DNA of 64,000 nucleotides. It comes from an uncultured Eubacteriales bacterium. GTDB taxonomy: Bacteria; Bacillota; Clostridia; UMGS1883; UMGS1540. Where the stretch lies: assembly GCA_900552775.1 (NCBI GenBank), contig USAP01000001.1, positions 12,006 to 76,005 of the forward strand, read 5' to 3'. Below the pieces are notes generated by a model. It worked only from the letters and a program-made list of their open reading frames with translations, was not told the origin of the DNA and made no database searches. Positions within the stretch are counted from its first letter, which is position 1. Each line of letters opens with the position of its first letter. Made by a program: the position numbers and the translations under genes. Below are positions 6,273 to 26,977 of the stretch, piece after piece.

Positions 6273-6274
6273 TC

Positions 6275-8149: not shown

Positions 8150-8627
8150 TTGCCGCCTCCTCCCTGAGCTGCTTTAAAAGCTCCGAAGCCTTGTCGGGAG
8201 TCATTGCCGGATGAACCTCTTCGTTTACCATAAGCACCGGCGCAAGTCCGCAGGCGCCGAGGCACGAAACGGTTTCAAGCGTAAAAAGAAGGTCATCCGT
8301 CGTCTTTTTCTCCGCCGTGAGGTTCAGCTCTTTGCGCATACGATCCAGAATAGGAATCGAGCCGCGCACGTGACAGGCGGTTCCGTCACATATTCTTATA
8401 ACGTATTTGCCCTTGGGCTCCAACGAAAAATTCTCGTAAAACGTTGCAACGCTGTATATGCGCGCCTCGCTCATTCCGAGCTTTTCGGCTATATACGGGA
8501 ATACCTCGCGCGGCAGATAGTGATAATGCTCCTGAATTTCCTGCAAAATCGCAATTATCGCACGCGGTTTACTGTCATGTGCGGCAAGTATACCGTCTGT
8601 CACCGCAAAATCAAATGATTCACTCAT
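8142..8627 (-). CDS. hydC: Bifurcating hydrogenase subunit HydC (NuoE-like)
   Basis: A 161-residue NuoE-like [2Fe-2S] protein, with the thioredoxin-fold ligands in CDGTACHVRG and SCLGACGLAP and the N-terminal helical HYHYLPREVFPYIAEKLG segment. It is the third subunit of the HydABC complex, which couples NADH and reduced ferredoxin oxidation to H2 formation. Its end overlaps the hydB start by 8 nt. It follows nfnB by 27 nt, so nfn and hyd genes may share a transcript. Confidence 0.93.
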   Translation of the reverse strand: MSESFDFAVTDGILAAHDSKPRAIIAILQEIQEHYHYLPREVFPYIAEKLGMSEARIYSVATFYENFSLEPKGKYVIRICDGTACHVRGSIPILDRMRKELNLTAEKKTTDDLLFTLETVSCLGACGLAPVLMVNEEVHPAMTPDKASELLKQLREEAAND

Positions 8628-12159: not shown

Positions 12160-13828
12160 CTGCTATAGTCTCCTTTAACTTCGTGAGGGCAATTTTCGTT
12201 TCCGCCGCCGTCTCACCCAAAAGCGACGCGATTTCCTGAACTATTCTCATCTGCTTATCCACAACCTTGTCGGCAATTTCAACCGTTTGTCTGCCGACGC
12301 TTTCTTTTCTCTCACGCGCTTTTTCTTCTTCCGTAATATCGCGCATGATGCATATAAGCAGCCTGTAATCCTGGTCGTAGGTTATGGTAACCTCAACGTA
12401 TTTCCCGTACTCGGCAAGATATAATTTTTTGTTTTTGAGATTCCATCGGCTTTCCAGAACGTCTGTAAAAAGCTTAGGGTCAAGCACGCGCACGATATGG
12501 TCTCCCAGTATGTCCGACGCGCTGCGAAGGTTTATAATTTTAAGCGCCGCTTCGTTAATCTGCTGCACCTCGAGCATCTCGTTTAAAACTATAAGTCCGT
12601 TAGGGGTGTTTCGTACAATGTTGTCGGAAAAGCTTTCCGCTTTGTCTTTAAGATACGGCAGACACATTGAAACCTCCGCCTTGCCCTGGTATATCGCCAC
12701 CGCCTTCTCGCGGCAGGTGTTGTAGCCGCACGAGCCGCAGTTTAATTCGTCGGACGGCTTGTATTTGCCCATTTTATGAAGTATTTCGGTTATCTCTTCC
12801 TCTGTGGGATCCTGAAGTTTTTTTTCTATAACCGAAAACGTCTTTTTGATTTCGAGACTGTCCGGCTGCTCAACCCTAAAATCCCGCGAACCGGCAAATT
12901 CCGCAACCACCATGTAGTCTTTTACCGGCGAATGGTGGAATTTTTCCATAACAGGTCCGCCTACGCAGCTGCCGGTGCATGCCGACATCTCTATAAAGCA
13001 CTTGTGAATTTTTCCGTTTTCTATGTCGCGCAGCGCCGCCATACAGTTTTCAACACCGTCTATCGCCATATAGGTATAACCCTCGGCGTCCTGCGCCATT
13101 GTTTTTAAAATTCCGCCCGTTGTCGGGAAAAAGCGTGCGCGGCTCTCTTCCTCATGTTCGTTTTCGGGCTCAATCTCTATTTTTTCTTCTTTAAACCACT
13201 TTGTCAGTTCGTCAAAAGTCAAAACCGCGTCAACAATTCCCTCGTAATACTCCGCCTCGTCTTTTTTGGCAACGCACGGACCTATAAACACGGTTTTTGC
13301 GTTTTTATCACGCTTTTTAAGTTCTATGCAGTGCGCCTGCATCGGAGACAGCACGTTTGCAAGATACGGCAGCTCCTTCGGAAAATATTTCTGCACCAGA
13401 AGGTTAACCGAATGGCAGCAGGAGGATATCACGATATCCCTTTTATCTTCGCGCAGCATTCTTTCATATTCGTTTTTAACTATTGTTGCGCCGACGGCGG
13501 TTTCCTCCGCGTCCGCAAAGCCGAGTTTTTTAAGTGCGGCGCGCATGGAGTTTATCCCGGCGCCCTCATAGTTTGCCACAAACGAGGGCGCAAGACTGAC
13601 ATATACCGGGTCGCCGCTTTTCAAAAGCACACGCACCTTTTCCGTCTCGTCAACAATCTGTTTTGCATTCTGCGGACAGACAACAAAGCAGTGTCCGCAA
13701 AGGATACATTCGTTGCTTATTATATACGCCTGATTGCCCGAAAATCTAATTGATTTTACGGGGCAGTGACGTATGCATTTATAGCAGTTCCTGCAGTTTG
13801 ATTTTTTAAGCGTAAGACAGTCGGACAT
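12152..13828 (-). CDS. Sensory [FeFe] hydrogenase with PAS domain (HydS, group C)
   Basis: A 558-residue protein. Domains in order: two ferredoxin-like clusters (CRNCYKCIRHCP, CILCGHCFVVCP; residues 12-51), an H-cluster domain with SSCCHS (C137, C138), FIGPCVAKKDE (C185) and EMSACTGSCVGG (C284, C288), an extra Fe-S motif CGSCGYNTC (C364-C372) with C389, a PAS domain (~395-500) and a C-terminal helical segment likely to form a coiled coil. This is the group C sensory hydrogenase layout. No kinase or GGDEF output is attached; the overlapping SpoIIE phosphatase is the probable output. Both cysteines of the L1 CC pair are kept. Confidence 0.88.
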   Translation of the reverse strand: MSDCLTLKKSNCRNCYKCIRHCPVKSIRFSGNQAYIISNECILCGHCFVVCPQNAKQIVDETEKVRVLLKSGDPVYVSLAPSFVANYEGAGINSMRAALKKLGFADAEETAVGATIVKNEYERMLREDKRDIVISSCCHSVNLLVQKYFPKELPYLANVLSPMQAHCIELKKRDKNAKTVFIGPCVAKKDEAEYYEGIVDAVLTFDELTKWFKEEKIEIEPENEHEEESRARFFPTTGGILKTMAQDAEGYTYMAIDGVENCMAALRDIENGKIHKCFIEMSACTGSCVGGPVMEKFHHSPVKDYMVVAEFAGSRDFRVEQPDSLEIKKTFSVIEKKLQDPTEEEITEILHKMGKYKPSDELNCGSCGYNTCREKAVAIYQGKAEVSMCLPYLKDKAESFSDNIVRNTPNGLIVLNEMLEVQQINEAALKIINLRSASDILGDHIVRVLDPKLFTDVLESRWNLKNKKLYLAEYGKYVEVTITYDQDYRLLICIMRDITEEEKARERKESVGRQTVEIADKVVDKQMRIVQEIASLLGETAAETKIALTKLKETIADE

Positions 13829-13882
13829 AGCTTTTCCTCCCCTAATTTCGGAATTTTAACACATTTTCGTTTAACGCCGCAA

Positions 13883-13908
13883 AAGCGTGCCGAAAATTCG
13901 ACACGCTT
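13883..13908 (-). terminator. Hairpin after the small [2Fe-2S] gene, possible attenuator
   Basis: AAGCGTGCCGAA (13883-13894) pairs with TTCGACACGCTT (13897-13908) apart from one wobble. On the minus strand it is followed by only four T residues, so it could be a weak terminator or attenuator between the [2Fe-2S] gene and hydS. Confidence 0.4.
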
Positions 13909-13919
13909 CACAAAGCGTC

Positions 13920-14162
13920 CTATTTAAGTTTATTTAAAATATTTTCTTTAAAAAAAGCTTCTACATCATCGGGCGATACGGAATAAAACTCATTATCCGC
14001 CGTAACGCATACTCCCTGTCTGCATTTTCCCATACAAAACGATCCGGATAGTTCAACTTTATCACTCAAGCCGTTTTCGGAAATGAGACTCTGCATTTTT
14101 TCAACAACTTTTCTCGAACCTTTTATATGACAGGAGGAGCCGATACATACAGTAACTTTCAT
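13920..14162 (-). CDS. Small thioredoxin-like [2Fe-2S] protein
   Basis: An 80-residue paralogue of the protein at 4327-4575: CIGSSCHIKGSRKVV at the N-terminus and SFCMGKCRQG centrally, the ligands of a thioredoxin-type [2Fe-2S] cluster. It is the first gene of the hydrogen cluster, 91 nt upstream of hydS. In related hydrogenase loci such NuoE-like stubs precede the sensory hydrogenase; a role delivering electrons to HydS is an inference. The ATG at 14162 is preceded by CCGGAGG. Confidence 0.8.
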   Translation of the reverse strand: MKVTVCIGSSCHIKGSRKVVEKMQSLISENGLSDKVELSGSFCMGKCRQGVCVTADNEFYSVSPDDVEAFFKENILNKLK

Positions 14163-14279: not shown

Positions 14280-14579
14280 TTATGCATTTTCGCGCATTTT
14301 GTCAAGTTTTATATTTCTGAAATAAAGAGCAACATCAATTGAAATCATAATAAGGTTCAGCACATAGAAGAAAAAGCTCAGGAAAAATACAAAACCGCTT
14401 GAGCCCTGTGCCGTCTGTATAGCCTTGCGCACTATTCCGAACACATATCCCAAAAGCAGAAAAAGCTCAAAAAACAGGCTTTTTCCCTTTGCTGTACGTG
14501 AAATATATGACTTTCTTATTGAAATCGGCCACGAAAGACCGAAGCAAAGAATTGTCATAGCTTCAAGAAAATCCAACAT
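14280..14579 (-). CDS. Small membrane protein, PQ-loop/SWEET-like
   Basis: A 99-residue protein with three hydrophobic segments (about residues 6-22, 35-52 and 62-85) and the conserved CFGLSWPISIRKSYISRTAKG block near the N-terminus, which resembles small PQ-loop-like membrane proteins of unknown function widespread in Clostridia. The ATG at 14579 has AAAGGAGAA 7 nt upstream and is preferred over a longer frame. It is the last gene downstream of the fumarate-reductase flavoprotein, but it lacks histidines that could bind haem, so it does not look like a fumarate reductase membrane anchor. A hairpin at 14627-14667 separates it from the flavoprotein gene. Confidence 0.65.
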   Translation of the reverse strand: MLDFLEAMTILCFGLSWPISIRKSYISRTAKGKSLFFELFLLLGYVFGIVRKAIQTAQGSSGFVFFLSFFFYVLNLIMISIDVALYFRNIKLDKMRENA

Positions 14580-14626
14580 AAAAGTTCTCCTTTTTTTATG
14601 CGGAGCAAAAAAAATCCGGTCAAAGC

Positions 14627-14667
14627 CATTGCCAAAGGAGCAATTTAAAATCTCTCCTTTGGCAATG
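14627..14667 (-). repeat. 14-bp perfect inverted repeat between flavoprotein and membrane-protein genes
   Basis: CATTGCCAAAGGAG (14627-14640) is exactly complementary to CTCCTTTGGCAATG (14654-14667) with a 13-nt loop. A run of eight T on the minus strand lies 12 nt beyond the stem (14614-14607), so this is not a textbook intrinsic terminator. It may limit read-through or stabilise the upstream mRNA 3' end. Confidence 0.5.
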
Positions 14668-14696
14668 CTTAAAACCACCGCTTTTGCCGCCGCCTA

Positions 14697-16295
14697 TTAT
14701 TTTTGTCTCCTGTAATCGGGCAAGAGTTTTGGTGAAACAGCGTCTGTCTTTATTCCTGCCGCTTCTCTCTCGCTGTCAAACTTATTTATATGCGAAAGCG
14801 TGAGCTCACCCGGGGTTGTCTCCTTGGCTCTTGCAGCCGCATTTATTCCGGCATTTCTGCCGAAAACGATAATATCGAGAAGCGAGTTGCCCATAAGTCT
14901 GTTTCTGCCGTGGATTCCTCCGACAGCCTCGCCCGCAACAAAGAGGTTATGCACATTTGTTGTCTCGCCGTTTACGTCTATATCAAGACCGCCGTTCTGG
15001 TAATGCAATGTGGGGTAAACCAAAATGGGTTCTTTTCTGATATCTATTCCGAAGCTTAAGAACATACGCATCATTGCCGGAATACGCTTTTCGATTGTGC
15101 CTTCGCCGCCGATTTCTTCAATCATCGGAGTGTCAAGCCATACTGCCTTGCCGCTTCCCGTGTCAACGCCTTCTCCTCTGTCGGAGCATTCTCTTATTAT
15201 TGAAGCCGCCGAAACATCACGCGTTTCGAGAGGGTGCATAAACACCTTTCCGTCACGGTTTATAAGCTTTGCGCCCAAAGAACGAACTTTTTCCGTTACC
15301 AGTGCGCCGAAAATCTGCTGAGGGAAAGCCGCGCCCGTGGGGTGATACTGAAGGGTGTCGGCATAAAGAAGCTTTGCTCCCGCTCTGTAGCCGAGAACAA
15401 GTCCGTCAGCCGTTGCGCCGTAGTGGTTTGAGGTCGGGAAGCCCTGATAGTGCATTCTTCCCGCGCCGCCCGTTGCTATAATAACGGTTTTTGCCTTTGC
15501 AACCATGAGCTCTTGCGTTTCCATATTCATAAGCACTGCGCCTGCCGCATTGCCGTTTTCGTCGAGAATAAGCTCTATTGCAGCCGTGAAGTCAACAACC
15601 GGAATACCTCGGTTTATAACCTCGTCGCGCAGCGTTCTCATTATCTCAGCGCCGGAATAGTCCTTTGCCGCATGCATTCTCTTTCTTGAAGTTCCGCCTC
15701 CGTGAGTTGTGATCATGGTTCCGTCTTCGGCTTTGTCAAACTCAACGCCGAGTTCGTTAAGCCATTTTATGGCGCCCGGTGCGTCGCACACAAGCTTTGC
15801 CAAAAGATCGCGCTTTGCGGCAAAATGTCCGCCGCCGAAAGCGTCGAGAAAATGTATTGCCGGAGAATCGTTCTCTTTGTCCGCCGCCTGAATTCCGCCT
15901 TCCGCCATCATTGTATTTGCATCGCCTATGCGCAGCTTTGTAACAATCATAGCCTTGGCGCCTGCGTTATCCGCCTCTATTGCAGCCGAAGCACCGGCTC
16001 CGCCGCCGCCTATAATAAGTACGTCAACATCGTATGCCACGTTTTTGAGATCTACATCCTCAGCCTTTATTCTGCTGTGAGCCTCAAGCATTGCGCAAAG
16101 CTCGTGCGGAACTTTTTCGCCCTTGTTGGGGCCTATGGAAAGCTCTGAAAATTCGCTCTTTTTATAGTCGGGATGATATGCTGCAAGCAAATCGTCCTTC
16201 TCCTTTGCGGTCATACGTTTGGGCTCGTAAGCTATATTCTCTTTTCTTGCCGCCTCAACCGCTTTAAGTGATTCCTGAAATTCCTGTGAATACAT
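14697..16295 (-). CDS. Soluble fumarate reductase/succinate dehydrogenase-type flavoprotein
   Basis: A 532-residue flavoprotein of the FRD/SDH family. FAD fold DVLIIGGGGAGASAAIEAD (91-109), MAEGGIQAA, active-site QYHPTGA (H318), TEKVRSLG (R338), PTLHYQNGG (H431) and GRNRLMGNSLL (R466) match the fumarate/succinate site. The histidine that binds FAD covalently in classical enzymes (SHTxxAEGG) is replaced by N127 (ANTMMAEGG), so FAD should be non-covalent as in soluble TfrA-type reductases. An ~85-residue N-terminal extension precedes the FAD domain. It follows its iron-sulfur partner by 11 nt in the Flx-Hdr operon; no membrane anchor gene is nearby. It likely reduces fumarate to succinate. An APS-reductase-like or aspartate-oxidase role is less likely. 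Confidence 0.85.
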   Translation of the reverse strand: MYSQEFQESLKAVEAARKENIAYEPKRMTAKEKDDLLAAYHPDYKKSEFSELSIGPNKGEKVPHELCAMLEAHSRIKAEDVDLKNVAYDVDVLIIGGGGAGASAAIEADNAGAKAMIVTKLRIGDANTMMAEGGIQAADKENDSPAIHFLDAFGGGHFAAKRDLLAKLVCDAPGAIKWLNELGVEFDKAEDGTMITTHGGGTSRKRMHAAKDYSGAEIMRTLRDEVINRGIPVVDFTAAIELILDENGNAAGAVLMNMETQELMVAKAKTVIIATGGAGRMHYQGFPTSNHYGATADGLVLGYRAGAKLLYADTLQYHPTGAAFPQQIFGALVTEKVRSLGAKLINRDGKVFMHPLETRDVSAASIIRECSDRGEGVDTGSGKAVWLDTPMIEEIGGEGTIEKRIPAMMRMFLSFGIDIRKEPILVYPTLHYQNGGLDIDVNGETTNVHNLFVAGEAVGGIHGRNRLMGNSLLDIIVFGRNAGINAAARAKETTPGELTLSHINKFDSEREAAGIKTDAVSPKLLPDYRRQK

Positions 16296-16306
16296 ATTAC
16301 CCCTCC

Positions 16307-16981
16307 TTACTTCTCTATTTCTCTGTTGTTGTAAAGCTCAGAAAGTTCTTCAACGGGTTTGCCCATGAGATTTTCTATAAGCTCTTTGAATGTGCCGTCT
16401 TCGATTTCTTTTACGCGTTTTGTAAGATGCTTGCTTTCGGGCGCAAGATATTTTCCGTTTAATCTGCGCGCAAGCATTGCAACCTGCGGATGCGAAATTC
16501 CCGCCGGGCATCTTGAAGAACATACGCCGCACATAACGCAGTCGAAGGACTCCTCGGCGCATTTTTCAAACTCTCCGCGCTGAGCGTATGCTATATACTG
16601 CATAACGTTAAGGCTCTGCGTGCAGCTCTTTGTGCAGGCGTTGCAGCCCACGCAAGCGTAAATCTCGGGGTAAAGCTGCATCATAATCTGCTCTGTGGGT
16701 TTTATTTTTTCTATGTCGTAAACCTCTTTTACAAGCGGGAAAAACGGAAGGGTTGCAACGTACATATCGTTTTCAACCTTCGTCTGACATGCCAGACAAG
16801 TCTTAAGCTCCTTTTCTCCTTTTATGCGGTATATTGTCGCACAGGCTCCGCAGAAACCGTTTCTGCAGCCGCAGCCTCTGACAAGCTGATAACCCGCGTA
16901 TTCCATAGCGCGCATAATCGTAAGCTCTGCCGGAACGCTGTATTTCTTGCCAAAGAGATAAACATTTACCATTTTATCCAT
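16307..16981 (-). CDS. Fumarate reductase iron-sulfur subunit (SdhB/FrdB-like, short)
   Basis: A 224-residue protein with an N-terminal [2Fe-2S] ferredoxin domain (GCGCRNGFCGACATIY, then CLACQ) and two 4Fe-4S motifs, CVGCNACTKSCTQ and CVMCGVCSSRCPAG. It is the electron conduit to the adjacent flavoprotein. Compared with methanogen TfrB (about twice as long) it lacks the C-terminal CCG domains; those are present separately in HdrB of the same operon. Start at 16981 has GAGGAG 9 nt upstream. The third cluster region is not the 3Fe-4S type of membrane enzymes, agreeing with a soluble complex. Confidence 0.85.
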   Translation of the reverse strand: MDKMVNVYLFGKKYSVPAELTIMRAMEYAGYQLVRGCGCRNGFCGACATIYRIKGEKELKTCLACQTKVENDMYVATLPFFPLVKEVYDIEKIKPTEQIMMQLYPEIYACVGCNACTKSCTQSLNVMQYIAYAQRGEFEKCAEESFDCVMCGVCSSRCPAGISHPQVAMLARRLNGKYLAPESKHLTKRVKEIEDGTFKELIENLMGKPVEELSELYNNREIEK

Positions 16982-17003
16982 ATCACGTTACTCCTCTCAA
17001 AAA

Positions 17004-17837
17004 TTAATATTCATTCGGCAGCTCATCAAGCTCATCGCAGCGGAAAACAGGTCCGTCTTTGCAAACGTATTTTGAACCTATGTTGCATCTTCCGCATTTT
17101 CCGATGCCGCATTTCATGCGCAGCTCCATGGTTGTATAAATCTGAGTTTTGTCAAACCCGAGCTCCTGCAGCCCGGCAAGCGTAAATTTAATCATTATCG
17201 GCGGTCCGCACAAAATTGCGGTTTTGTCGGTTGTGAATCCGAGTTCTTTAACGTAGTTCGGAACAAAGCCGACATGACCGTCCCACTCCGGCTGCGGATT
17301 ATCTATCGTAAGATGCACCGAAACGCCGGCGTCGTTTGACCACTCTGTGATTATTTCGTTATAGTCCACCAGATCCTGCATACTGCGCGAGCCGTATACA
17401 ATATCTATTTTTCCGTATCTGTCGCGGTAGTGGCGGCAGTAATTTATAACCGAGCGCAGCGGTGCAAGACCGATACCGCCGGCTATAAAGAGCATATCCT
17501 GTCCGGCAAACGCAGTGTCAACCGGAAACGCGTTTCCGTAGGGTCCGCGGATGGTTATCTGCTGACCCACTTCCATCGAGTGAAGCCACTGTGTAACACA
17601 GCCGCATTTTTTTATTGAAAACTCCATAAACTCTTCATTTGTGGGCGATGAGGTTATGGAAAACATTGCTTCTCCCACACCCGGTATAGAAAGCATTGCG
17701 CACTGACCGGGTTTATGCTCGAAAGCCTTTTTCCCGTCGGGGGTTACAACGCGGAAGGTTTTAACATCCGGCGTATCTATTCTTATATCCGTCACAACGC
17801 CCACCGTGGGCATGAGCGGTTCTCTGATTTCAGCCAT
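17004..17837 (-). CDS. FlxA-like NADH/FAD oxidoreductase subunit
   Basis: A 277-residue ferredoxin-reductase-like protein: FAD-binding barrel, GGIGLAPLRSVINYC nucleotide loop, YGSRSMQDLVD, GPPIMIKF and a C-terminal [2Fe-2S] site (ELRMKCGIGKCGRCNIGS). The family includes hydrogenase gamma subunits, sulfite reductase AsrB and FlxA. With the MvhD-like and HdrABC genes downstream in gene order, FlxA, the NADH-oxidising entry of the FlxABCD-HdrABC complex described in Desulfovibrio, is the best assignment. It overlaps the next upstream gene by 8 nt, as expected for subunits made in fixed ratio. Confidence 0.8.
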   Translation of the reverse strand: MAEIREPLMPTVGVVTDIRIDTPDVKTFRVVTPDGKKAFEHKPGQCAMLSIPGVGEAMFSITSSPTNEEFMEFSIKKCGCVTQWLHSMEVGQQITIRGPYGNAFPVDTAFAGQDMLFIAGGIGLAPLRSVINYCRHYRDRYGKIDIVYGSRSMQDLVDYNEIITEWSNDAGVSVHLTIDNPQPEWDGHVGFVPNYVKELGFTTDKTAILCGPPIMIKFTLAGLQELGFDKTQIYTTMELRMKCGIGKCGRCNIGSKYVCKDGPVFRCDELDELPNEY

Positions 17838-18855
17838 TATCCTTACCTCCCAGTTTCTTCATAACCTTAACAATATTCATCTGAATCGGGCATTTTGCCA
17901 GACATCTTCCGCAGCCTACGCAGGAGAACATGCCGTCGTTATTTGTCGGGAAATACACAAGCTTATGCATAAATCTCTGACGGAAGCGCTCAAGCTGCGT
18001 GAGTCTGGGCTGACCTGCGGACATTTTCGTAAAGTCCGAATACATACATGAATCCCAGCAGCGGAAACGTTTTATTCCGTGACCGGTATTAAAGTCTTTT
18101 ATATCATAGCACTGGCATGTGGGGCATACAAAAGTACACGTTCCGCAGCCGAGGCAGTTTCCGGAAAGCTCTTTCCACTCGGGCGCACCGAAAAATTCTT
18201 GGGTTTTGTCCTTGCCGAACTTATCTGCCGAAAGATTTGCAAGCGGCAGCTTTTCAAAACGCTCATGCGTTTCTTTTTTCTGTTTTTCGGTTTCGGCGCC
18301 GTCCGATTCCTCACCGAGTGCGGCAATGCTCTTTATAAGCTTTTCGCCTTTGTCGGTTTTGGCTTCCATGTAAAGCGCGGAAGCGGTTTTATGGCAAACA
18401 ACATCTCCCTCGGGTTCCGCCGCGTCTATTCCGAACGTTTTGCAGAAGCACGTCTCAACGGGCTTTGTGCATGCAAGCGATATTATAACGCCGTGGTCGC
18501 GGCGGTTTTTATAATACGTGTCCACGGGATCTGCCAGGAACACGCGGTCAAGCACGTCAAAGCTTTTTACATCGCACGCGCGCACTCCGAAAACCACAAA
18601 ATTTTCGCTTTCGCTGCGCGTATCGATAATTTCTATATTTTTTCCTTCAACCTTAAAGTCCATAAGGTTCTCCGTCTGCGGAAAGAAGAAATCCTTTGCG
18701 CTTCTGACAGTGTTCAAAGCATCGGAAAGCTTTTTTCCCTCCTCCCACTTTTCAAACCTTGCGCCGCCCTTCCCGTCAACGGGCATATAAAGCGTCATAT
18801 CGGCGGCAATTTTTGCAAACATATTATCAATTTTATCAATCGATATTTTAAGCAT
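17830..18855 (-). CDS. FlxB-like 4Fe-4S oxidoreductase subunit (AsrA/HyhB-like)
   Basis: A 341-residue protein of the anaerobic sulfite reductase A / sulfhydrogenase beta family. The N-terminal two thirds contain the VFGVRACDVKSFDVLD and SLACTKPVETCFC blocks; the C-terminal third has two 4Fe-4S motifs, CLGCGTCTFVCPTC and CVGCGRCLAKCP. It probably transfers electrons between the FlxA flavin and the rest of the complex. ATG at 18855 is preferred to a GTG three codons upstream because GAGAGG lies 8 nt before it; it overlaps the neighbouring genes on both sides. Confidence 0.78.
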   Translation of the reverse strand: MLKISIDKIDNMFAKIAADMTLYMPVDGKGGARFEKWEEGKKLSDALNTVRSAKDFFFPQTENLMDFKVEGKNIEIIDTRSESENFVVFGVRACDVKSFDVLDRVFLADPVDTYYKNRRDHGVIISLACTKPVETCFCKTFGIDAAEPEGDVVCHKTASALYMEAKTDKGEKLIKSIAALGEESDGAETEKQKKETHERFEKLPLANLSADKFGKDKTQEFFGAPEWKELSGNCLGCGTCTFVCPTCQCYDIKDFNTGHGIKRFRCWDSCMYSDFTKMSAGQPRLTQLERFRQRFMHKLVYFPTNNDGMFSCVGCGRCLAKCPIQMNIVKVMKKLGGKDNG

Positions 18856-19840
18856 TGTCGTCACCTCTCTTTACAGCCTCATCGGGTTCGGCGTCATCTA
18901 CGGTGTAATTTACTATCGGAGCGCGGCTTCCGACTTCCGCTCCAGCCTGATAGTCTCCGTAAAGCTCGTCTATATCTTTTATAAATTTGCGGTTTAAAAG
19001 ATGGAGCGGTATGTGCTGCGGACATACGCGCGAGCACTCTCCGCAGTCGGTGCATCTTCCGGCAACGTGGAATGCGCGGATGATGTGGAACATCTTTTCT
19101 TCAAATTCCGTTGAAGGCGCTTTGTTTTCAACGCCCGAATCCGGATTGTCAAAAACACATTTTTCACATGTGCATGCCGGACAAACATCGCGGCAGGCAT
19201 TGCATCTTATACATCTTGAAAGCTCACCCTGCCAGAAGGCAAAGCGCTCGTCCGAAGACATTTTTTCGATTTTTGCAACCTCGTCAAACCTTGCGGAGTC
19301 AAGCACTTCTCCGTCCTCTCCCAAAAGTTCGTCATAAGCCACATGTTTTTTGGACTTGCAGTTTACGCATCTTTCTGCCAAAAGCTCTTCGCGCGGCACT
19401 TTAACGTCCCCGTCAAAAAGCGTGTGAAGCACTGCATTTTCGCCTTCAAAAGACACGTCCGAAAGTCCCTCCGCTTTTTCCTTTGCGCGGTTTATATCAA
19501 TCATACCGCAGCAGGGAACTCCAACGGCATAAACCTTTTCGCGGTCAAATCTGTGTTCGGTTAAAAGCTGATTAAAGCTGTAAGTATCGCACGGCTTTAA
19601 AAACACAAGCACCTTTTTATCGCTTTTAAGCGTTTCCGCAACAAGATATTTTGAAAAGTTTGCGCCGCAGAAGCCGTTCCATACGAAGTCTTCCGCAAGC
19701 TCGTCCGCCGAACCGAATACAGACGGCGTAACGTCATAGAAAAATTCACCTTTTCTCCAGCCGAGAACCCTGTCGCAGGTTCCGTCTTCAAGAAGCTTTG
19801 AGGCTTTTTCGATGAGAACATCGCGTGTTATTTCCTGCAT
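18848..19840 (-). CDS. FlxC-like 4Fe-4S protein (FrhB-like)
   Basis: A 330-residue iron-sulfur protein. The first half resembles coenzyme F420 hydrogenase beta-type domains (VFLKPCDTYSFNQLL, VGVPCCGMIDI, RCVNCKSKK); the second half has CIRCNACRDVCPACTCEKC and CTDCGECSRVCPQHIP 4Fe-4S motifs. The acidic C-terminal tail is unstructured-looking. Position between the FlxB-like and MvhD-like genes, with overlaps of 8 and 13 nt, marks it as the third Flx component. FrhB-type flavin binding is possible but not proven from motifs I can see. Confidence 0.72.
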   Translation of the reverse strand: MQEITRDVLIEKASKLLEDGTCDRVLGWRKGEFFYDVTPSVFGSADELAEDFVWNGFCGANFSKYLVAETLKSDKKVLVFLKPCDTYSFNQLLTEHRFDREKVYAVGVPCCGMIDINRAKEKAEGLSDVSFEGENAVLHTLFDGDVKVPREELLAERCVNCKSKKHVAYDELLGEDGEVLDSARFDEVAKIEKMSSDERFAFWQGELSRCIRCNACRDVCPACTCEKCVFDNPDSGVENKAPSTEFEEKMFHIIRAFHVAGRCTDCGECSRVCPQHIPLHLLNRKFIKDIDELYGDYQAGAEVGSRAPIVNYTVDDAEPDEAVKRGDDNA

Positions 19841-20262
19841 CTTAAATCCTCCAATCTTTTGTTTCTGCCGAGTTTTGCAACCTTTTCGGCAAAATCATTC
19901 ATTGTTGCGGCAAATTTTGCGCCCTCTGCCGCGCTGACCCATTCAACGCGCGTACGCTCTCTCTCGATTCCGAGATAGTCGAGCATTGAGAAAAGCAGCG
20001 ACATACGGCGTCTTGTATAGTAGTTGCCCGAAGTATAGTGGCAGTCACCGGGATGGCAGCCGCATATAATAACTCCGTCCGCCCCTCTGCCGAATGCGCG
20101 CAGTATAAACATCGGGTTTACTCTGCACGAGCAGGGTACGCGGATAACTTTAACGTCCGCCGGGTAATTAAGTCTGTTGTTTCCTGCAAGGTCCGCCCCG
20201 GCATATGAGCACCAGTTACAGCAGAATGCCACAATAAGCGGCTTATATTCGTTTACTTGCAT
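19828..20262 (-). CDS. MvhD/FlxD-like [2Fe-2S] linker protein
   Basis: A 144-residue protein matching the hydrogenase iron-sulfur subunit (MvhD/FlxD, DUF2148-like) family: FCCNWCSYAGADLAG, RVPCSCRVNPMFILRAF and CGCHPGDCHYTSGNY supply the cysteines of one [2Fe-2S] cluster. In methanogens and Desulfovibrio this small protein carries electrons into HdrA. Its start overlaps the hdrA stop by 10 nt, which supports that job here. Confidence 0.9.
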   Translation of the reverse strand: MQVNEYKPLIVAFCCNWCSYAGADLAGNNRLNYPADVKVIRVPCSCRVNPMFILRAFGRGADGVIICGCHPGDCHYTSGNYYTRRRMSLLFSMLDYLGIERERTRVEWVSAAEGAKFAATMNDFAEKVAKLGRNKRLEDLRCRK

Positions 20263-22247
20263 ATTGCGTCCACCTCCGCCATAATTTGTTGATTTGTGAA
20301 GCCTTTAAGGTTCATGGCTCCCGACATACACGCAACCGTGCATGCGCCGCAGCCCTGACATACCGCCTCGTTAACAGACGCTACGCGGCGTGCCCTTGTT
20401 GTTCTGTCAGGCATTCTGAAATCCTTCACAACATATGTTATCGCGCCGTACGGACATACGTTTTCGCATGTCGAACAGCCGTTACACATCATTTCGTCCG
20501 AATGAGCCACACAGGGGTTGCCCGTGAGCTTATCCTTGCACAGAAGACCTATAACCTTTGAAGCAGCGGCTCCCGCCTGAGAAACCGTTTCCGGAATATC
20601 TTTGGGGCCCTGGCACGCACCGGAGAGGTACACGCCCGCCGTCGGACTTTCAACGGGACGGAGCTTCGGATGAGCCTCTGTGAAAAAGTCGTTTGTATCC
20701 ATACTTGCGGTGAGCATTGTAGCAAGCGGACGTGCCGATTTATCCGGCTCTATCGCAGCTGCAAGCACAACAAGATCCGCATCTATATTTATCTGTTTGC
20801 CGGCGATGAGATCGGACGCGCGCACTTTAAGCTTTTTGCCGTCCGGCATAACTTTGCCGACCATGCCTTTTATATAGTGAACGCCGTATTCCTCAACCGC
20901 GCGGCGGTAAAACTCGTCAAAGTTTTTGCCGGGTGTACGAACATCTATATAGAAAACATAAACGTCTGTGTCGGGGTACTTGTCCCTTGTGAGCATTGCG
21001 TGCTTTGCCGTGTACATACAGCAGATTTTGGAGCAGTATTCCTTGCCCTTCTCGGCGCACGCTTCGCATCTTGAACCCACGCACTGAACAAACACTATTG
21101 TGTGCGGATGCTCTCCGTCCGAGGGGCGCAGAAGCTTTCCTGCCGTAGGTCCTGCCGCATTTGTAAGTCTTTCGAACTCAAGCGACGTAATTACGTCTTT
21201 TGACTGGCTGTACGCATACTCGTCGAATTTCTCCATGGAAATCGGGTTATATCCCGTAGCAACAACAATTGCGCCGTATTTTTCCTTTATATATTCGTCT
21301 TTTGCCTTATAGTCTATGGCGCCCGCCGTACATATCTTGGAACAGAGACCGCATTTGCCCGTTTTAAGCATTGTGCAGTAATCGGGGTCGATGGTTGCAA
21401 CCTTCGGCACAGCCTGAGCAAAAGGAATGTATATGGCGCGTCTTGTGTCCATTCCGAGGTTAAATTCATTGGGGACCTTCTTCTGAGGACATTTTTCAGT
21501 ACAAGCGCCGCAGCCCGTGCACGCCTCTTCTTTAACAAATCTCGCACGTTTTTTAATCGTCACTTCAAAGTTGCCGACAAAGCCGCCGACCTCCGTAACC
21601 TCCGAGTACGAGAAAATTCTTATATTTTCGTTCTGCGCAACGTCAACCATTTTCGGCGTTAATATACACGCCGCACAGTCAAGCGTCGGAAATGTCTTGT
21701 CAAGCTGAGCCATTTTGCCGCCTATTGTCGGTTTTGTCTCAACAATGTCAACCGGAAATCCCGCGTCCGCTATGTCAAGCGCCGTCTGGATGCCGGCAAT
21801 ACCGCCGCCTATAACGAGCGCGCGCTTTGTAACGGGGCTTTCTCCCGGTGTTAAGGGTGTGTTTAATTTAACTTTTGCAACAGCGGCTTTTGCCAGAATA
21901 ACGGCTTTTTCCGTGCCGACGGGCATTTCTTTATGAACCCATGAGCACTGCTCGCGTATGTTTGCAATTTCAACCATATACGGATTTATGCCCGCTGCCG
22001 CCGCCGTTTTTCTGAACGTCGCCTCATGCATACGCGGCGAGCACGAACATACCACGATTCCCGTGAGGTTATGCTCCGCTATGGCGTCTTTTATTATGTC
22101 CTGTCCCGCTTGGGAACACATATACTGATAATCGGTGGAGAAAACAACCCCCGGCTCATGTTTAAGAGCCTCCGCAACCGATTTAACGTCTACCGTTCCG
22201 GCAATATTCGTGCCGCAATGGCAAACAAATACACCTATTCTTTGCAT
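20253..22247 (-). CDS. hdrA: Heterodisulfide reductase-like subunit HdrA (flavin bifurcation core)
   Basis: A 664-residue HdrA. N-terminal Cys-rich domain (GVFVCHCGTNIAG, CSQAGQ, VVCSCSPRMHE), thioredoxin-reductase-like FAD fold (RALVIGGGIAGIQTALDIAD), internal CTGCGACTEKCPQ and CGLCSKICTAGA motifs, and a C-terminal ferredoxin pair (CNGCSTCENVCPYG, CQGCGACTVACMSG). HdrA carries the FAD that splits electron pairs between ferredoxin and an acceptor. No in-frame UGA suggests selenocysteine. It starts at 22247, 16 nt after hdrC, and lies in the Flx-Hdr-fumarate reductase operon. Confidence 0.92.
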   Translation of the reverse strand: MQRIGVFVCHCGTNIAGTVDVKSVAEALKHEPGVVFSTDYQYMCSQAGQDIIKDAIAEHNLTGIVVCSCSPRMHEATFRKTAAAAGINPYMVEIANIREQCSWVHKEMPVGTEKAVILAKAAVAKVKLNTPLTPGESPVTKRALVIGGGIAGIQTALDIADAGFPVDIVETKPTIGGKMAQLDKTFPTLDCAACILTPKMVDVAQNENIRIFSYSEVTEVGGFVGNFEVTIKKRARFVKEEACTGCGACTEKCPQKKVPNEFNLGMDTRRAIYIPFAQAVPKVATIDPDYCTMLKTGKCGLCSKICTAGAIDYKAKDEYIKEKYGAIVVATGYNPISMEKFDEYAYSQSKDVITSLEFERLTNAAGPTAGKLLRPSDGEHPHTIVFVQCVGSRCEACAEKGKEYCSKICCMYTAKHAMLTRDKYPDTDVYVFYIDVRTPGKNFDEFYRRAVEEYGVHYIKGMVGKVMPDGKKLKVRASDLIAGKQINIDADLVVLAAAIEPDKSARPLATMLTASMDTNDFFTEAHPKLRPVESPTAGVYLSGACQGPKDIPETVSQAGAAASKVIGLLCKDKLTGNPCVAHSDEMMCNGCSTCENVCPYGAITYVVKDFRMPDRTTRARRVASVNEAVCQGCGACTVACMSGAMNLKGFTNQQIMAEVDAICK

Positions 22248-22263
22248 GGCTTGTATCTCCTTT

Positions 22264-22656
22264 CTACTTCGAGTATTTTCTGAATGCGCTCACAATCGCC
22301 TGCTGAGGCATATCCTCATCCGCAATCTCGGGTATGTTGTCTGCCAAAAGATGATTTGCGCCTTTTTCTCTTACTGCAACAAGTCTCACCGCTTCTATAA
22401 GCTTAGCCGGCTCCACTCCGCGCGGACATCTCTCAACGCACGCAAAGCATGAGAGGCATTTGTATATCGAATCGGACTTTAAAAGTGCGTCGATATCTCC
22501 GGTTTCAACCATATATACAAACTGATGCGGATGATATTCCATCTCGTCGTAGGAAGGACATGTGCCCGAGCATTTGCCGCATCTCATGCACTTTAAGGGA
22601 TTAACTCCGCTTGTACGCAGAATCTGTTCTTTGATACGTTCCGTTTTACTCTGCAT
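22264..22656 (-). CDS. hdrC: Heterodisulfide reductase-like subunit HdrC
   Basis: A 130-residue ferredoxin-like subunit with two 4Fe-4S motifs, CMRCGKCSGTCPSY and CLSCFACVERCPRGVEP, the standard HdrC layout. It links HdrA to HdrB. Its start overlaps the hdrB stop region by 11 nt. The length matches cytoplasmic HdrC rather than the HdrDE type. Confidence 0.9.
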   Translation of the reverse strand: MQSKTERIKEQILRTSGVNPLKCMRCGKCSGTCPSYDEMEYHPHQFVYMVETGDIDALLKSDSIYKCLSCFACVERCPRGVEPAKLIEAVRLVAVREKGANHLLADNIPEIADEDMPQQAIVSAFRKYSK

Positions 22657-23452
22657 CGTCTTCCTCCTTCACTCCGAGAGCCTCTGCCAAAAGTTCCGTG
22701 AAATATACCACGGGTACAGGGCTTTCGTTCTTTACGAGATTGTATTTGCAAAGCGGACAAGCGGTAACAATCGTATCCGCTCCGCCTTTTTGCGCGCTTT
22801 CCGTCACGCTGCGGCTCTTCTTTGCCGCGGATTCCGCGTCTTCCAAAGCCACATAGCCGCCGCAGCACTCGTTTCTGAAAGGATATATCACGGGCTCTGC
22901 GCCGAGCGCTCTTATAAAGTCCTCCATTATACGGGGATTCTCCGGATCGTCAAGCGCCATTACTTTGCCGGGGCGCAGCAAAAGGCAGCCGTAATATGCC
23001 GCGATTTTTCTGCCTGTGAGCGGGTTTTTAACCGCCTCGCGCACCTTGTCAAAGCCTATTTTGTCGCGCAGAAGCTCCAGATAATGACAAACCTCCGCTT
23101 CGCCTTCATACGGGGATTCAAAGTCTTTGTCCTGCGCCATGTAATTGTTTACGCGCGCGGTGAAATCCGCATCTGTCCGAATCTGATGATTCGTCTGTTT
23201 TATTACGTTATGACAGGCTGAACATACCGTAACGAGGGGGCGCGAATTGTCTCTCGCTTCCTTGAGCGCACGAACGCTTGAAAGCTTTGTGGCAATTTCG
23301 TCTCCCGCGCTTACGAATACTCCGCCGCAGCACTGCCAGTTTTCTATCTCACAGAGCTCTGCGCCGAGAATCTCGGCGCAGCGGCGAGCGTAGAAATCAA
23401 GCTTTTTTGCTTTTGTGCGGAGGGTACAGCCCGGAAAATAACTGACCTTCAT
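22646..23452 (-). CDS. hdrB: Heterodisulfide reductase-like subunit HdrB (two CCG domains)
   Basis: A 268-residue HdrB. Both CCG domains are complete: first FPGCTLR, WQCCGGVF and CSACH; second YYGCLLLR, NECCGGYV and CPLCKYN. These bind the paired noncubane 4Fe-4S clusters in methanogen HdrB. The ATG at 23452 has GGAGG 8 nt upstream; a longer frame begins inside that ribosome binding site. The physiological substrate is probably not CoM-CoB disulfide; because the fumarate reductase iron-sulfur gene in the same operon lacks the CCG half of TfrB, HdrB may feed fumarate reduction (inference). Confidence 0.9.
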   Translation of the reverse strand: MKVSYFPGCTLRTKAKKLDFYARRCAEILGAELCEIENWQCCGGVFVSAGDEIATKLSSVRALKEARDNSRPLVTVCSACHNVIKQTNHQIRTDADFTARVNNYMAQDKDFESPYEGEAEVCHYLELLRDKIGFDKVREAVKNPLTGRKIAAYYGCLLLRPGKVMALDDPENPRIMEDFIRALGAEPVIYPFRNECCGGYVALEDAESAAKKSRSVTESAQKGGADTIVTACPLCKYNLVKNESPVPVVYFTELLAEALGVKEEDDAE

Positions 23453-23469
23453 TTGTTTTACCTCCATTT

Positions 23470-24846
23470 TTACACCATTTGCTCGGGGTGGAACACCTCG
23501 TCAAATTTCTCTGCCGTAAGGAAACCGAGCTCAACACAGGCTTCCTTCAAAGATATATTGTCCTTATACGCTTTTTTTGCGGTTTTTGCAGCGTTTTCAT
23601 ATCCGATATACGGATTGAGCGCCGTAACAAGCATAAGCGAATTATAAAGATTGTGATGCATTTTTTCCTTGTTTGCCTTTATGCCGACTGCGCAGTTTTT
23701 GTTGAAGGACACTATAGCCTCCGCCAAAAGCCTTGCCGACTGCAAAAAGTTATAAGCCGCAACGGGCATGAACACGTTAAGCTCAAAGTTGCCCTGCGAT
23801 GCCGCAATGCTTATCGCCGTGTCGTTGCCCATAACCTGAACCGCTACCATTGTAACCGCCTCGCACTGCGTGGGGTTAACCTTGCCCGGCATAATCGAGG
23901 AGCCCGGCTCGTTTTCGGGAATAAATATCTCTCCGAGACCGTCTCTGGGGCCGGACGCCAGCCATCTTATATCGTTTGCTATTTTAAGCATATCGCACGC
24001 TGTGGCTTTGATTGCTCCGTGTGCGAACACAATCTCGTCTTTTGATGTGAGCGCGTGGAACTTGTTTGCAGCCGTAACAAACGGTTTGCCCGTTAAAAGC
24101 TCAACTTTTTTTGCCACAAGCTCCGAAAAGCCTTTCGGCGCGTTAAGACCCGTGCCGACAGCCGTGCCGCCCAAAGCAAGTTCATACAAAGGCTTCAAAG
24201 CCATGTGCAGCAGCTCTGCGTCTCTCTCAAGGCTTGATCTCCAGCCGCTTATCTCCTGGCTGAATTTAATGGGAGTTGCGTCCTGAAGGTGCGTACGCCC
24301 CGATTTAACTATGCCTTCGTTCTCTTCCTCGAGCTTTTTAAATGTTTCTATAAGCGTTTCTACAGCCGGAAGAAGCTTGTCCTCTATAGCCGTTACCGCC
24401 GAAATATGCATAGCCGTGGGGAAAGTGTCGTTTGAAGACTGGCTCATATTAATATCGTCATTGGGGTGCGCAATTTTTTTGCCCGCTATCTGATTTGCGC
24501 GGTTTGCGATAACCTCGTTTGCGTTCATGTTAGACTGCGTTCCCGAACCCGTCTGCCATACGACAAGCGGAAAATGGGCGTTAAGCTCGCCCGAGATAAC
24601 CTCATCGCATGCCTTTTCTATTGCCGCAAGTTTTTCATCCGTCATTTTTTCGGGTTTGAGTTCGTGATTTGCAAGTGCGGCAGCTTTCTTTAATATTCCG
24701 AAAGCGTGTGTGATTTCGCGCGGCATTGTTTCAATATCCACGCCTATTTCAAAATTCTCATGGCTTCTCTGCGTCTGTGCCGCCCAAAGCTTATCTGCCG
24801 GCACCAAAACTTCACCCATGGAATCATGTTCTTTACGGTATTCCAT
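23470..24846 (-). CDS. fumC: Class II fumarate hydratase
   Basis: A 458-residue fumarase [21 protein letters not shown] near residue 100, [12 protein letters not shown], and the signature [16 protein letters not shown]. It interconverts malate and fumarate in the cytoplasm without an Fe-S cluster. Aspartase, the closest relative, is less likely given the GSGTQSNMN and PTQCE signatures and the neighbours. It lies 12 nt after the malate/lactate dehydrogenase-family gene and 17 nt before hdrB, placing fumarate supply in the same transcript as the putative fumarate reductase. Confidence 0.93.
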
Positions 24847-24858
24847 TAAAGCACTCCC

Positions 24859-25803
24859 TTATATATCAAGATTTTTTATAACTTCTTTAAGCGTTGCTTC
24901 ACTCTTATGCAGCTTTGCAATCTCTTCTTCCGTAAGCGGAACAAGCACTTTCGAGCGCGCACCGTCTTTTCCGACGATGTTAAGCACACTGAGACAAACA
25001 TCGTCAACGCCGTATTCGCCGTGCATCAATGTCGAAACCGTCATGGTTGTGTCAATTCCGCCCAAAAGGCATTTAACTATATGACAAACCGAAATGGAAA
25101 CGGCATAGAAAGTCGCACCCTTGCGCTCTATAACTCTTGCGCCCGATTTGCGCACATACTGCTCGACCTCCTCGTAGCTGAACTCGGGATAAGCCGAATC
25201 GGCGCGTGTAATAAGTCTGTCGCAGTCGGCTATCGGAATGTTTGAAATGTTTGCAATCGACCACGGCACAAACGATGAATCACCGTGCTCGCCGTATACG
25301 TACGCGTGCACGTTGCCCTGGTTGATATCATAGTACTCGGAAAGTCTCGCTCTTAAGCGCGCCGTATCCAAAATCGTGCCGGAGCCTATGATTCTGTTTT
25401 CCGGCAGACCCGACCTTTTGCAGAAAGTATACGTCAGTATATCAACCGGATTACTTACTATAATATAAGTAGCGTCCGGCGCATGCTTTGTGATCTGGGG
25501 GATAATCTGTTTCGTGATATTTACGTTTGTCTGCGCAAGCTCAAGTCTCGACTGACCTGCCTTTCTTGCCATACCCGACGTAATTATTACAATATTTGAA
25601 CCCTCCGCGTCGCGGTAATCGCCCGCGTAAACCGAACAAGCTCCGCAGAAAGGGATGCCCTGTCTTATATCCAGCGCTTCACCCAGAGCCTTTTCGTTGT
25701 TAATGTCGATCATAACTATTTCGGAAGCCGTTCCCATAACCGCAAGCGTATACGCTATTGTGGAACCTACGCTTCCGGTTCCGATAATAGAAATCTTATT
25801 CAT
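24859..25803 (-). CDS. Malate/lactate dehydrogenase family enzyme with malate-type specificity residue
   Basis: A 314-residue L-lactate dehydrogenase-like protein: IIGTGSVGSTIAY NAD fold, SNPVDILTY, GSGTILDTARLR (D146, R149) and catalytic GEHGDSSF (H173). By overall similarity it would be called L-lactate dehydrogenase, but the substrate-discriminating residue (Gln102 in LDH numbering, as in ANQKPGETR) is Arg80 here (MARKAGQSR), as in malate dehydrogenases. The position next to fumC and fumarate reductase also favours oxaloacetate to malate. ATG at 25803 has GAGG 7 nt upstream and is preferred to a GTG two codons earlier. First gene of the operon. Confidence 0.82.
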   Translation of the reverse strand: MNKISIIGTGSVGSTIAYTLAVMGTASEIVMIDINNEKALGEALDIRQGIPFCGACSVYAGDYRDAEGSNIVIITSGMARKAGQSRLELAQTNVNITKQIIPQITKHAPDATYIIVSNPVDILTYTFCKRSGLPENRIIGSGTILDTARLRARLSEYYDINQGNVHAYVYGEHGDSSFVPWSIANISNIPIADCDRLITRADSAYPEFSYEEVEQYVRKSGARVIERKGATFYAVSISVCHIVKCLLGGIDTTMTVSTLMHGEYGVDDVCLSVLNIVGKDGARSKVLVPLTEEEIAKLHKSEATLKEVIKNLDI

Positions 25804-25818
25804 ACACACACCTCATTT

Positions 25819-26050: not shown

Positions 26051-26977
26051 TCAGCCGAAGACATTTTTTTTGGATTTTCGCAGTTCTTCGAGGAAAATTC
26101 TGTCAAGCTGCGTAAGGCGGTATGTTTTTTTTCTTATTATGACATCCTTGCACGACCTTCCGCTGTCGCTGCACGGAATCTGGACAAGTCCGTATCTTTC
26201 CGCCGTCTCATGTGACACCGGTGAATCCCATATAAAAGCCTGCGGATTTTTTGATATAAGCTCCAGTCTTCCGGCGCGTTCGTAAACATAGATGCGGCGG
26301 CTTGATTTTGTTTCGTCCTCGGGTTTCTTTCTTTCGGAAGTTGCGGATGAGGGCACAAAGGGGTCTGCGTGGGCAATTTCAATATAGTTTTTCACATCTT
26401 CGTAACTCACGCTTTTTTTCTCCGCAAGAGGGCTTTTGATGCTGACTATAAGCACATAGTTAAATTCCGCCGCCACTTCATAGGAAAGTTCTTTTTCGGT
26501 TAAAAGCTTTCTGTAATATGTGTCAAGATTTTCGGCATAACGGATTATTCCTATCCTGTAGCCGGCTTCGTAAACATTTCTTATGGTTTGGCGCGCATTT
26601 GTCTCGGTATAAATTATCTCCGCACTTTTTTCGCGGTTTACGGCAAGCGAAAATTTAACAAAAGCTTCCGATATATATTCGGCGCGCGGCACTGAAGCCG
26701 AAAACTTTTTTTTGCCCGGCATATTGCTTTTGAAAATCGCCTCAACCTCGTAAACCTGATTTAAAATATTATTGGCATATACCAAAAAAGTCTCCCCTTC
26801 GGGTGTTAGTGACATTCCCTTCGGATTGCGCACAAAAAGCTTAACTCCGAGGGAGCTTTCAAGCTCTTTTATAGAGCGGCTGAGATTCGGCTGATTCACA
26901 AGCAGATTTTCCGCCGCTTTATTAATGGAGCCGCACCTTGCCACCTCAAGCGCATATTTCATTTGAAGCATATTCAT
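26051..26977 (-). CDS. LysR-family transcriptional regulator
   Basis: A 308-residue LysR-type regulator. The N-terminal winged helix-turn-helix reads ALEVARCGSINKAAENLLVN and RSIKELESSLGVKLFVRNPKG; the remaining 220 residues are the periplasmic-binding-like effector domain. The gene follows the DtxR-family gene by 16 nt and precedes the mdh-fumC-hdr-flx-frd operon on the same strand, so it may control that operon in response to a metabolite. The effector cannot be told from sequence. Confidence 0.88.
   Translation of the reverse strand: MNMLQMKYALEVARCGSINKAAENLLVNQPNLSRSIKELESSLGVKLFVRNPKGMSLTPEGETFLVYANNILNQVYEVEAIFKSNMPGKKKFSASVPRAEYISEAFVKFSLAVNREKSAEIIYTETNARQTIRNVYEAGYRIGIIRYAENLDTYYRKLLTEKELSYEVAAEFNYVLIVSIKSPLAEKKSVSYEDVKNYIEIAHADPFVPSSATSERKKPEDETKSSRRIYVYERAGRLELISKNPQAFIWDSPVSHETAERYGLVQIPCSDSGRSCKDVIIRKKTYRLTQLDRIFLEELRKSKKNVFG

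Follow-up and report, generated by a model that had tools for sequence, protein, structure and literature searches.

In a 64,000-nucleotide stretch of DNA from an uncultured Eubacteriales bacterium (contig USAP01000001.1, positions 12,006 to 76,005; here called the window), an operon of eleven minus-strand genes was found that probably encodes a soluble, quinone-free fumarate reductase, driven by NADH and coupled to ferredoxin reduction by flavin bifurcation. The eleven open reading frames (ORFs) are all open and run from 25809 to 14697 in the order putative malate dehydrogenase (MDH), fumC, hdrB, hdrC, hdrA, flxD, flxC, flxB, flxA, frdB and frdA, with intergenic distances of 12, 2, −11, 16, −10, −13, −17, −8, 22 and 11 nt, and sequences resembling ribosome-binding sites, judged by eye, lie 5′ of most of them. 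The tight same-strand spacing given in a preliminary description of this DNA was borne out, with a widest gap of 22 nt and overlaps to −17 nt, and the gene families named there agree with the profile matches, with refinements. What was observed is the gene content and order, how far both are conserved, which genes co-occur, the catalytic residues, and the lack of the quinone prenyltransferase and DsrC families in most or all of the relatives tested; that the proteins form a complex, work in this direction, are specific for NADH and bifurcate is inferred.

Genome-level claims were evaluated on related genomes in place of the window's own genome. A genome scan with FrdA gave at least 571 relatives, from which the best 80 loci were kept; conservation was testable in 57 of these (at least 7.2 kb upstream), and fumC and MDH in 53 (10 kb upstream). 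HdrB, HdrC, HdrA, FlxD, FlxC, FlxB, FlxA and FrdB were encoded beside FrdA in 57/57 testable loci, and the arrangement is therefore no accident; the joining of FrdAB, HdrABC and Flx genes in one operon across genomes, which had been put forward as a check, is thus seen in every testable locus. FumC was present in 50/53 loci, and MDH lay immediately upstream, 5′ of fumC or hdrB, in 46/53. Nearest named relatives among the matches listed were Ruminococcus sp. (FrdA identity 88–89%).

Gene products of the operon

All seven FlxABCD-HdrABC subunit genes are present within the one operon. HdrA (20253–22247), the flavin subunit and presumed site of bifurcation, was matched by NF040770 at 796.9 bits over profile positions 1–641 of 777 and aligned with 5odc_A at 688.6 bits; the match to bifurcating HdrA extends along the whole protein and takes in both ferredoxin domains. 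HdrB (22646–23467; PF02754) has both CCG motifs intact, corresponding to two non-cubane cluster sites, and HdrC (22264–22656) has two [4Fe-4S] motifs. FlxD is MvhD-like (19828–20262; PF02662, E 4.3e-55), the FlxC-like Fe-S protein (18848–19840) served as the co-occurrence marker below, the FlxB-like Fe-S protein (17830–18864) is related to AsrA and sulfhydrogenase beta subunits, and the FlxA-like FAD/NAD(P) oxidoreductase (17004–17837; PF00175, PF10418 and PF00970) is the presumed point of NADH entry. HdrC, FlxC and FlxB were assigned by family match.

FrdB (16307–16981; Pfam) carries one [2Fe-2S] and two four-cysteine [4Fe-4S] motifs, the cysteines having been read by eye. FrdA (14697–16295), the fumarate reductase flavoprotein, was assigned by family match and alignment: His318, Glu335, Arg338, His431 and Arg466 align with the catalytic set of fumarate reductase and succinate dehydrogenase in E. 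coli SdhA and do not vary among the 37 sequences compared, and the position of the covalent-FAD histidine is Asn127, with Asn throughout the 37, so FAD is expected to be noncovalent. The best NCBIfam match of FrdA was TfrA, whose cut-off was missed (330.3 vs 718 bits). L-Aspartate oxidase (NadB) was rejected because FrdA falls below its cut-off (267 bits vs 452.75) and separate NadB-NadC loci above cut-off are present in 2/10 relatives. A quinol:fumarate reductase (membrane complex II) was ruled out by the operon, in which no anchor gene is recognisable, by the missing covalent-FAD histidine and by the absence of UbiA from 9/10 relatives. Structural fold-match lists did not separate fumarate from other enoate substrates. 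Fumarate is the likely substrate, to judge from gene neighbourhoods, because hdr-free frdBA copies elsewhere adjoin genes for fumarase alpha/beta, malic enzyme, pyruvate carboxylase or an MDH-like protein. Residues 1–85 of FrdA form an N-terminal extension of ~85 residues with invariant positions, mostly outside the listed structural matches, which start at residue 67 or later, and possibly act as a docking element for the Hdr module. The operon was also seen in a record titled uncultured Treponema sp. (L078; FrdA identity 79%), which may reflect misbinning or transfer.

FumC (23470–24846) is a class II fumarate hydratase (TIGR00979, 702.7 bits, cut-off 664.75). The first gene (24859–25809) belongs to the lactate/malate dehydrogenase family, and its protein was named L-lactate dehydrogenase by NCBIfam (344.5 bits vs a cut-off of 339), the malate dehydrogenase models of NCBIfam remaining below their cut-offs. 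At the substrate-discriminating site, Arg82 aligns with Gln of 4m1q, the lactate dehydrogenase of known structure that matches best; 1y6j, the next solved structure in rank and likewise annotated as L-lactate dehydrogenase, has Arg at the aligned site. Arg at this position is presumably a mark of malate dehydrogenase. Malate dehydrogenase was judged more likely than lactate dehydrogenase because of Arg82 where 4m1q has Gln, despite the NCBIfam name.

A small membrane protein is encoded after frdA. Its ORF spans 14280–14678, and the start nearer that of most homologues, and probably the real one, is the ATG at 14579, giving 99 amino acids (14280–14579, minus strand) and a gap of 117 nt after frdA, in agreement with the earlier statement that this gene is set apart. 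Three helices are present and the predicted fold is, tentatively, SemiSWEET-like; a family profile gave 0 matches to solved sequences. The protein is a minority companion of the operon, since it lies within 400 nt 3′ of FrdA in 19 of the 77 loci with at least 500 nt downstream. On the fold prediction it may be an exporter, with succinate as the candidate substrate.

Genomic settings of frdBA and the Flx tree

The distribution of FrdA was examined in a sample of 398 genomes of the same phylum, calls being made at E ≤ 1e-90. FrdA was found in 39 of these, as 40 copies with 50–90% identity to that of the window. Full-length FlxC was present in 32/39 FrdA-positive vs 57/359 FrdA-negative genomes (odds ratio 24, Fisher p 4.5e-17, among genomes that are related), full-length status being query coverage read off the match listing by hand; any FlxC match at E ≤ 1e-30 was seen in 35/39 vs 100/359.

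The surroundings of the 40 frdBA copies were sorted by hand, several stretches ending at contig ends. The gene order of the window was present in two copies (G001 and L115), and a permutation of the same nine hdr, flx and frd genes with frdBA first in four (L125, L133, L136 and L142). Eleven copies lie with hdr genes, a long HdrA-like protein (760–1489 amino acids as seen), FlxD and a FlxC-like protein, in a stretch without a FlxA or FlxB gene; two HdrA-like proteins are encoded in nine of these loci, and the other two (L111 and L144) are cut. In four copies (L113, L127, L141 and L149) hdrC-hdrB-frdB-frdA stand alone. The remaining nineteen have no adjacent hdr genes and were annotated only in part; malic enzyme is a neighbour in L138, there with fumarase alpha/beta, and in L112, L137 has an MDH-like gene and L121 pyruvate carboxylase, L118, L119 and L120 have a cytochrome and L124 and L131 have FMN-binding/Fe-S proteins (see below), and no FrdB match was obtained at L116, the second frdA copy of G101. 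Related frdBA thus stands elsewhere beside other electron-input modules. Very long HdrA-like proteins adjoining frdBA (1070–1489 amino acids), accompanied by FlxD and FlxC-like genes without FlxA or FlxB, are at L114 10122–14591, which also matches NfnB, L126 13284–16562 and L128 13532–16744, and such proteins are perhaps another bifurcating input to FrdAB.

Seven genomes with hdr-free frdBA (L157–L163) have a Flx-Hdr cluster on another contig in the order of the window, hdrB-hdrC-hdrA-flxD-flxC-flxB-flxA. This cluster is complete in five of them; in L157 it is cut before flxA, and in L162 hdrA is split over two ORFs and the contig stops short of hdrB, so that linkage to frdBA may exist there. 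In G101 (L167) the cluster lies ~1.4 Mb from frdBA on the same contig. A tree of concatenated FlxA, FlxB and FlxC was calculated with IQ-TREE under LG+G4 from 98 rows: every FrdA-negative genome that has full-length FlxC (57), 12 linked loci and 29 remote Flx clusters of FrdA genomes. One branch, with support of 100/97, holds 19 of the 98 rows: the window, six loci in window order, the four permuted loci, L157–L163 and L167. It contains FrdA-positive genomes only (0/57 FrdA-negative rows), and in eight of its rows Flx-Hdr is on another contig or far from frdBA. Outside it fall all 57 FrdA-negative rows, L115 and 21 of the remote clusters from FrdA genomes. An earlier tree of 48 rows, in which the FrdA-negative side was sampled by 18 genomes of the 57, drawn from the 30 best-scoring, and from which eleven further FrdA genomes with Flx elsewhere were absent, gave the same 19 rows with support of 96/98; the fuller tree kept the result and raised the support. 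One Flx lineage occurs solely with this FrdA, linked or not, and FrdA itself is not confined to that lineage.

An in-frame TGA was observed in hdrA of the Flx-Hdr clusters of many FrdA-negative clostridia where the window has Cys (motif TLDCxA-Cys/TGA), for example at L152 5803, at L164 6434 and in several of L170–L187. Across 18 FrdA-negative loci (of 57) this site was TGA in 9 and Cys in 2, with the motif unmatched in 7, and among L001–L080 it was Cys in all 62 that show the motif, 18 being without it. The pattern suggests selenocysteine in HdrA outside the Frd-only Flx lineage.

Proposed reaction and alternatives

Succinate is a major gut product and cross-feeding metabolite, the host group is fermentative, and many Gram-positive gut anaerobes lack quinones. 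As proposed here, the operon would supply the last three steps from oxaloacetate to succinate (MDH, FumC and FrdAB) and would also provide the electrons for the final one. Two NADH would be oxidised at FlxA, and FlxB, FlxC and FlxD would relay the electrons to the FAD of HdrA, where they would split. The downhill pair would pass through HdrC and HdrB to FrdB and FrdA and reduce fumarate to succinate, and the other pair would reduce ferredoxin, giving overall 2 NADH + fumarate + 2 ferredoxin(ox) → 2 NAD+ + succinate + 2 ferredoxin(red). Reduced ferredoxin would be re-oxidised by HydABC (to H2), NfnAB (to NADPH) or, in most relatives tested, Rnf (to an ion gradient), and succinate may be exported by the SemiSWEET-like protein.

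Ten related genomes, the assemblies of which are possibly incomplete, were tested for RnfC, UbiA and DsrC. RnfC was above cut-off in 7/10. The UbiA family (quinone prenyltransferase) was missing in 9/10 and found in 14/14 control genomes, and the DsrC family was found in 0/10 relatives and, among the 14 controls, in E. coli only. No membrane-anchor gene was recognisable in the operon scan. With potentials of +33 mV for fumarate, −320 mV for NADH and −420 mV for ferredoxin (PMC5861303, cited here from extracts, as are the other PMC articles), the standard free energy of the coupled reaction is ~−49 kJ/mol, or −33 kJ/mol for ferredoxin at −500 mV. NADH oxidation coupled to both fumarate and ferredoxin reduction, with neither quinone nor anchor, as the preliminary description had it, is the best-supported mechanism, bifurcation itself being the inferred part. 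In its favour are the 57/57 loci and the permuted loci with the same nine genes, the co-occurrence with FlxC, the Frd-only branch of the Flx tree, the neighbours of hdr-free frdBA, the catalytic residues, the lack of UbiA in 9/10 and of DsrC in 10/10 relatives, the free energy, and the rise of the P. thermosuccinogenes operon under CO2 limitation described below. The further claim that ferredoxin feeds the adjacent HydABC and NfnAB holds in so far as these neighbours are real; they need not be the sole outlets, given RnfC in 7/10 relatives.

The alternative that survives best, though unlikely, is an uncoupled NADH:fumarate reductase, in which Flx-Hdr would pass electrons from NADH to FrdAB as a soluble redox sink and ferredoxin would not be reduced. 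Electron transfer from NADH to fumarate is strongly exergonic by itself at the potentials of PMC5861303, which also cautions that finding homologues of hdrABC or etfAB is not enough to establish bifurcation. Against this stand the full-length match of HdrA to bifurcating HdrA, with both ferredoxin domains, and the retention of seven Flx-Hdr subunits across many species, presumably a costly arrangement if simple transfer were enough. Slightly less likely again is a two-step thiol route, in which HdrB would be the site where Flx-Hdr reduces a disulfide, either small or in a protein, and the resulting thiols would drive FrdAB as a thiol:fumarate reductase, HdrB and FrdAB together resembling TfrAB. 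All CCG cysteines are kept in HdrB, frdBA stands with hdrCB alone in the four loci given above, and among NCBIfam models FrdA scores best against TfrA. DsrC, the known bacterial disulfide partner, is however missing in 10/10 relatives, the TfrA cut-off was missed, and the operon has no recognisable gene for a dedicated disulfide partner. Two further readings are very improbable. In the first, the complex would run backwards by confurcation and oxidise succinate with ferredoxin and NAD+ as the driving partners; bifurcating enzymes are in principle reversible, but this direction is disfavoured by Asn127 in place of the covalent-FAD histidine, as reported for fumarate reductase mutants, by the reductive-branch genes of the operon and by the fermentative host group. 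In the second, FrdA would act on another enoate (urocanate or an acrylate-type compound) and the fumarase linkage would be incidental; against it are the invariant catalytic residues and the repeated proximity of frdBA to genes for fumarase, malic enzyme, pyruvate carboxylase or an MDH-like protein.

Several points weigh against the NADH-driven bifurcating fumarate reductase preferred here. The mechanism is predicted from the genes, and HdrB retains both disulfide-reducing cluster motifs in the alignment to the solved HdrB 8rvv_B. The co-occurrence p value overstates the evidence because the genomes are related, which also applies to the trees, both of which drew a long-branch warning from the tree program. 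At E ≤ 1e-30, FlxC is unmatched in four of the 39 FrdA genomes, the operon of L115 is linked although its Flx proteins lie outside the Frd lineage, and Flx of the Frd-only lineage was found in only 13/32 FrdA genomes with full-length FlxC, the other 19 having other types only (rows examined) and mostly carrying frdBA next to hdrCB or to a long HdrA-like protein. In L118, L119 and L120, frdA is followed by the gene for a b561-type cytochrome that has ferredoxin domains, and these FrdAB relatives may be membrane-linked; FMN-binding/Fe-S proteins precede frdBA in L124 (5079–8516) and L131 (12658–13590), and L124 has NrfH-like cytochromes as well, so that electrons might reach fumarate from the cell surface. 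With the FlxC and lineage counts, these neighbourhoods of close frdBA relatives mean that FrdAB does not need this bifurcating partner everywhere. A large role in classic ruminococci is called into question by one report: in gnotobiotic sheep, R. albus and R. flavefaciens were without high fumarate reductase transcription (PMC8092306, data not shown there); in R. albus cultures succinate changed by +2.2 mM and fumarate by −5.5 mM (PMC6776011). Both reports bear on the operon only if these species carry it. A 'Rnf-like' label for the L124 and L131 neighbourhoods was unsupported, no Rnf family being matched at E ≤ 1e-10 among six proteins scanned.

A broader proposal, to which we give a little under even weight, is that the dedicated Flx-Hdr lineage forms one soluble NADH-ferredoxin-fumarate bifurcating complex and is the main quinone-free succinate route of gut Oscillospiraceae, in some with a SemiSWEET-fold succinate exporter, FrdAB being an exchangeable acceptor module that other clostridia join to other electron inputs. 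A soluble fumarate reductase that stores energy as reduced ferredoxin would explain how quinone-free gut anaerobes profit from making succinate; fumarate would join the acceptors of Hdr-type bifurcation, and succinate output would be tied to H2 and Rnf.

Flanking genes and known systems

A LysR-family protein (26051–26977, minus strand), a candidate regulator, is encoded 241 nt 5′ of the MDH gene. On the 3′ flank of the operon lie, in order, genes for a NuoE-like [2Fe-2S] protein, a PAS-containing [FeFe]-hydrogenase-like protein, a SpoIIE-type phosphatase, NfnA (10077–10925), NfnB (8655–10061), HydC (8142–8627), HydB (6275–8149) and HydA (4575–6335). The HydABC and NfnAB cluster of the preliminary description is thus real, HydA having been recognised by eye from its translation and the other four by family match. 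The first three genes of this flank (10987–14162), between the succinate operon and NfnAB/HydABC, look like a sensory hydrogenase module, and another [FeFe]-hydrogenase-like ORF (2877–4304, 475 amino acids), distinct from HydA and from the PAS type, was recognised by eye. Promoter and terminator scans gave 23 and 27 sites vs 15.1 (s.d. 4.6) and 17.4 (s.d. 4.4) in shuffles, and neither was used as support.

A closely similar 'succinate operon' has been described in Pseudoclostridium thermosuccinogenes (PMC7282089), consisting of a fumarate hydratase, seven Flx-Hdr locus tags, two fumarate reductase tags and one hypothetical protein; its level rose ~4-fold when CO2 was limiting, although the rise was not significant for every subunit, and a ferredoxin-coupled fumarate reductase was assumed there with reference to a 2019 preprint by Koendjbiharie and van Kranenburg. 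Compared by description, not gene sequence, the two operons have fumarase, Flx-Hdr, frd and a hypothetical gene in common, and the same proposed function; they differ in lineage, and an MDH gene is not named in the extracted description. The joint presence of frdBA, Flx-Hdr and fumarase, the operon criterion for the P. thermosuccinogenes bifurcating fumarate reductase, is seen in the window. In tubeworm symbionts and Thioflavicoccus mobilis, tfrAB genes are interspersed with flxABCD-hdrABC and a complex was suggested (PMC6315080); fumarate reductase genes likewise lie among flxABCD-hdrABC there, but as TfrAB, the assignment of that paper, instead of FrdAB, with korABCD in addition and serving the reverse TCA (tricarboxylic acid) cycle. 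The preliminary description knew of no characterised enzyme of this composition, which stands for biochemistry within the literature searched: no demonstration of a bifurcating fumarate reductase was found in open-licence sources, subscription papers being mostly outside the scope, none is among the characterised Hdr-type bifurcating enzymes listed in the extracts of PMC5861303, and term searches of PMC12174285, PMC8578096 and PMC7325909 gave nothing on such an enzyme. It does not stand for the gene set and the hypothesis, already in print (PMC7282089, with a related idea in PMC6315080). Because composition and hypothesis were already published, the window operon is a further case of a known proposal; new are the breadth of hdr-flx-frd conservation, the Frd-only Flx lineage, the modular contexts of FrdAB, the quinone and DsrC results and the fold tentatively given to the small membrane protein. 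For testing the 2019–2020 proposal, clear targets are offered by the Flx lineage restricted to FrdA genomes and by the unlinked pairs.

FlxABCD-HdrABC of Desulfovibrio vulgaris was reportedly described by Ramos in 2015, with a DsrC disulfide as the proposed acceptor. All seven of its subunit types are common to the window, which differs in the addition of FrdAB and in that its relatives (0/10) lack the DsrC acceptor. The methanogen thiol:fumarate reductase TfrAB has a soluble FrdA-like subunit and an HdrB-like CCG domain adjoining the fumarate reductase, whereas HdrB of the window is a separate protein attached to the bifurcating module. MetFV-HdrABC-MvhD of Moorella (PMC5861303) likewise joins HdrABC-MvhD to a substrate reductase, and differs from the window in having MetFV in place of FrdAB and no FlxABC.

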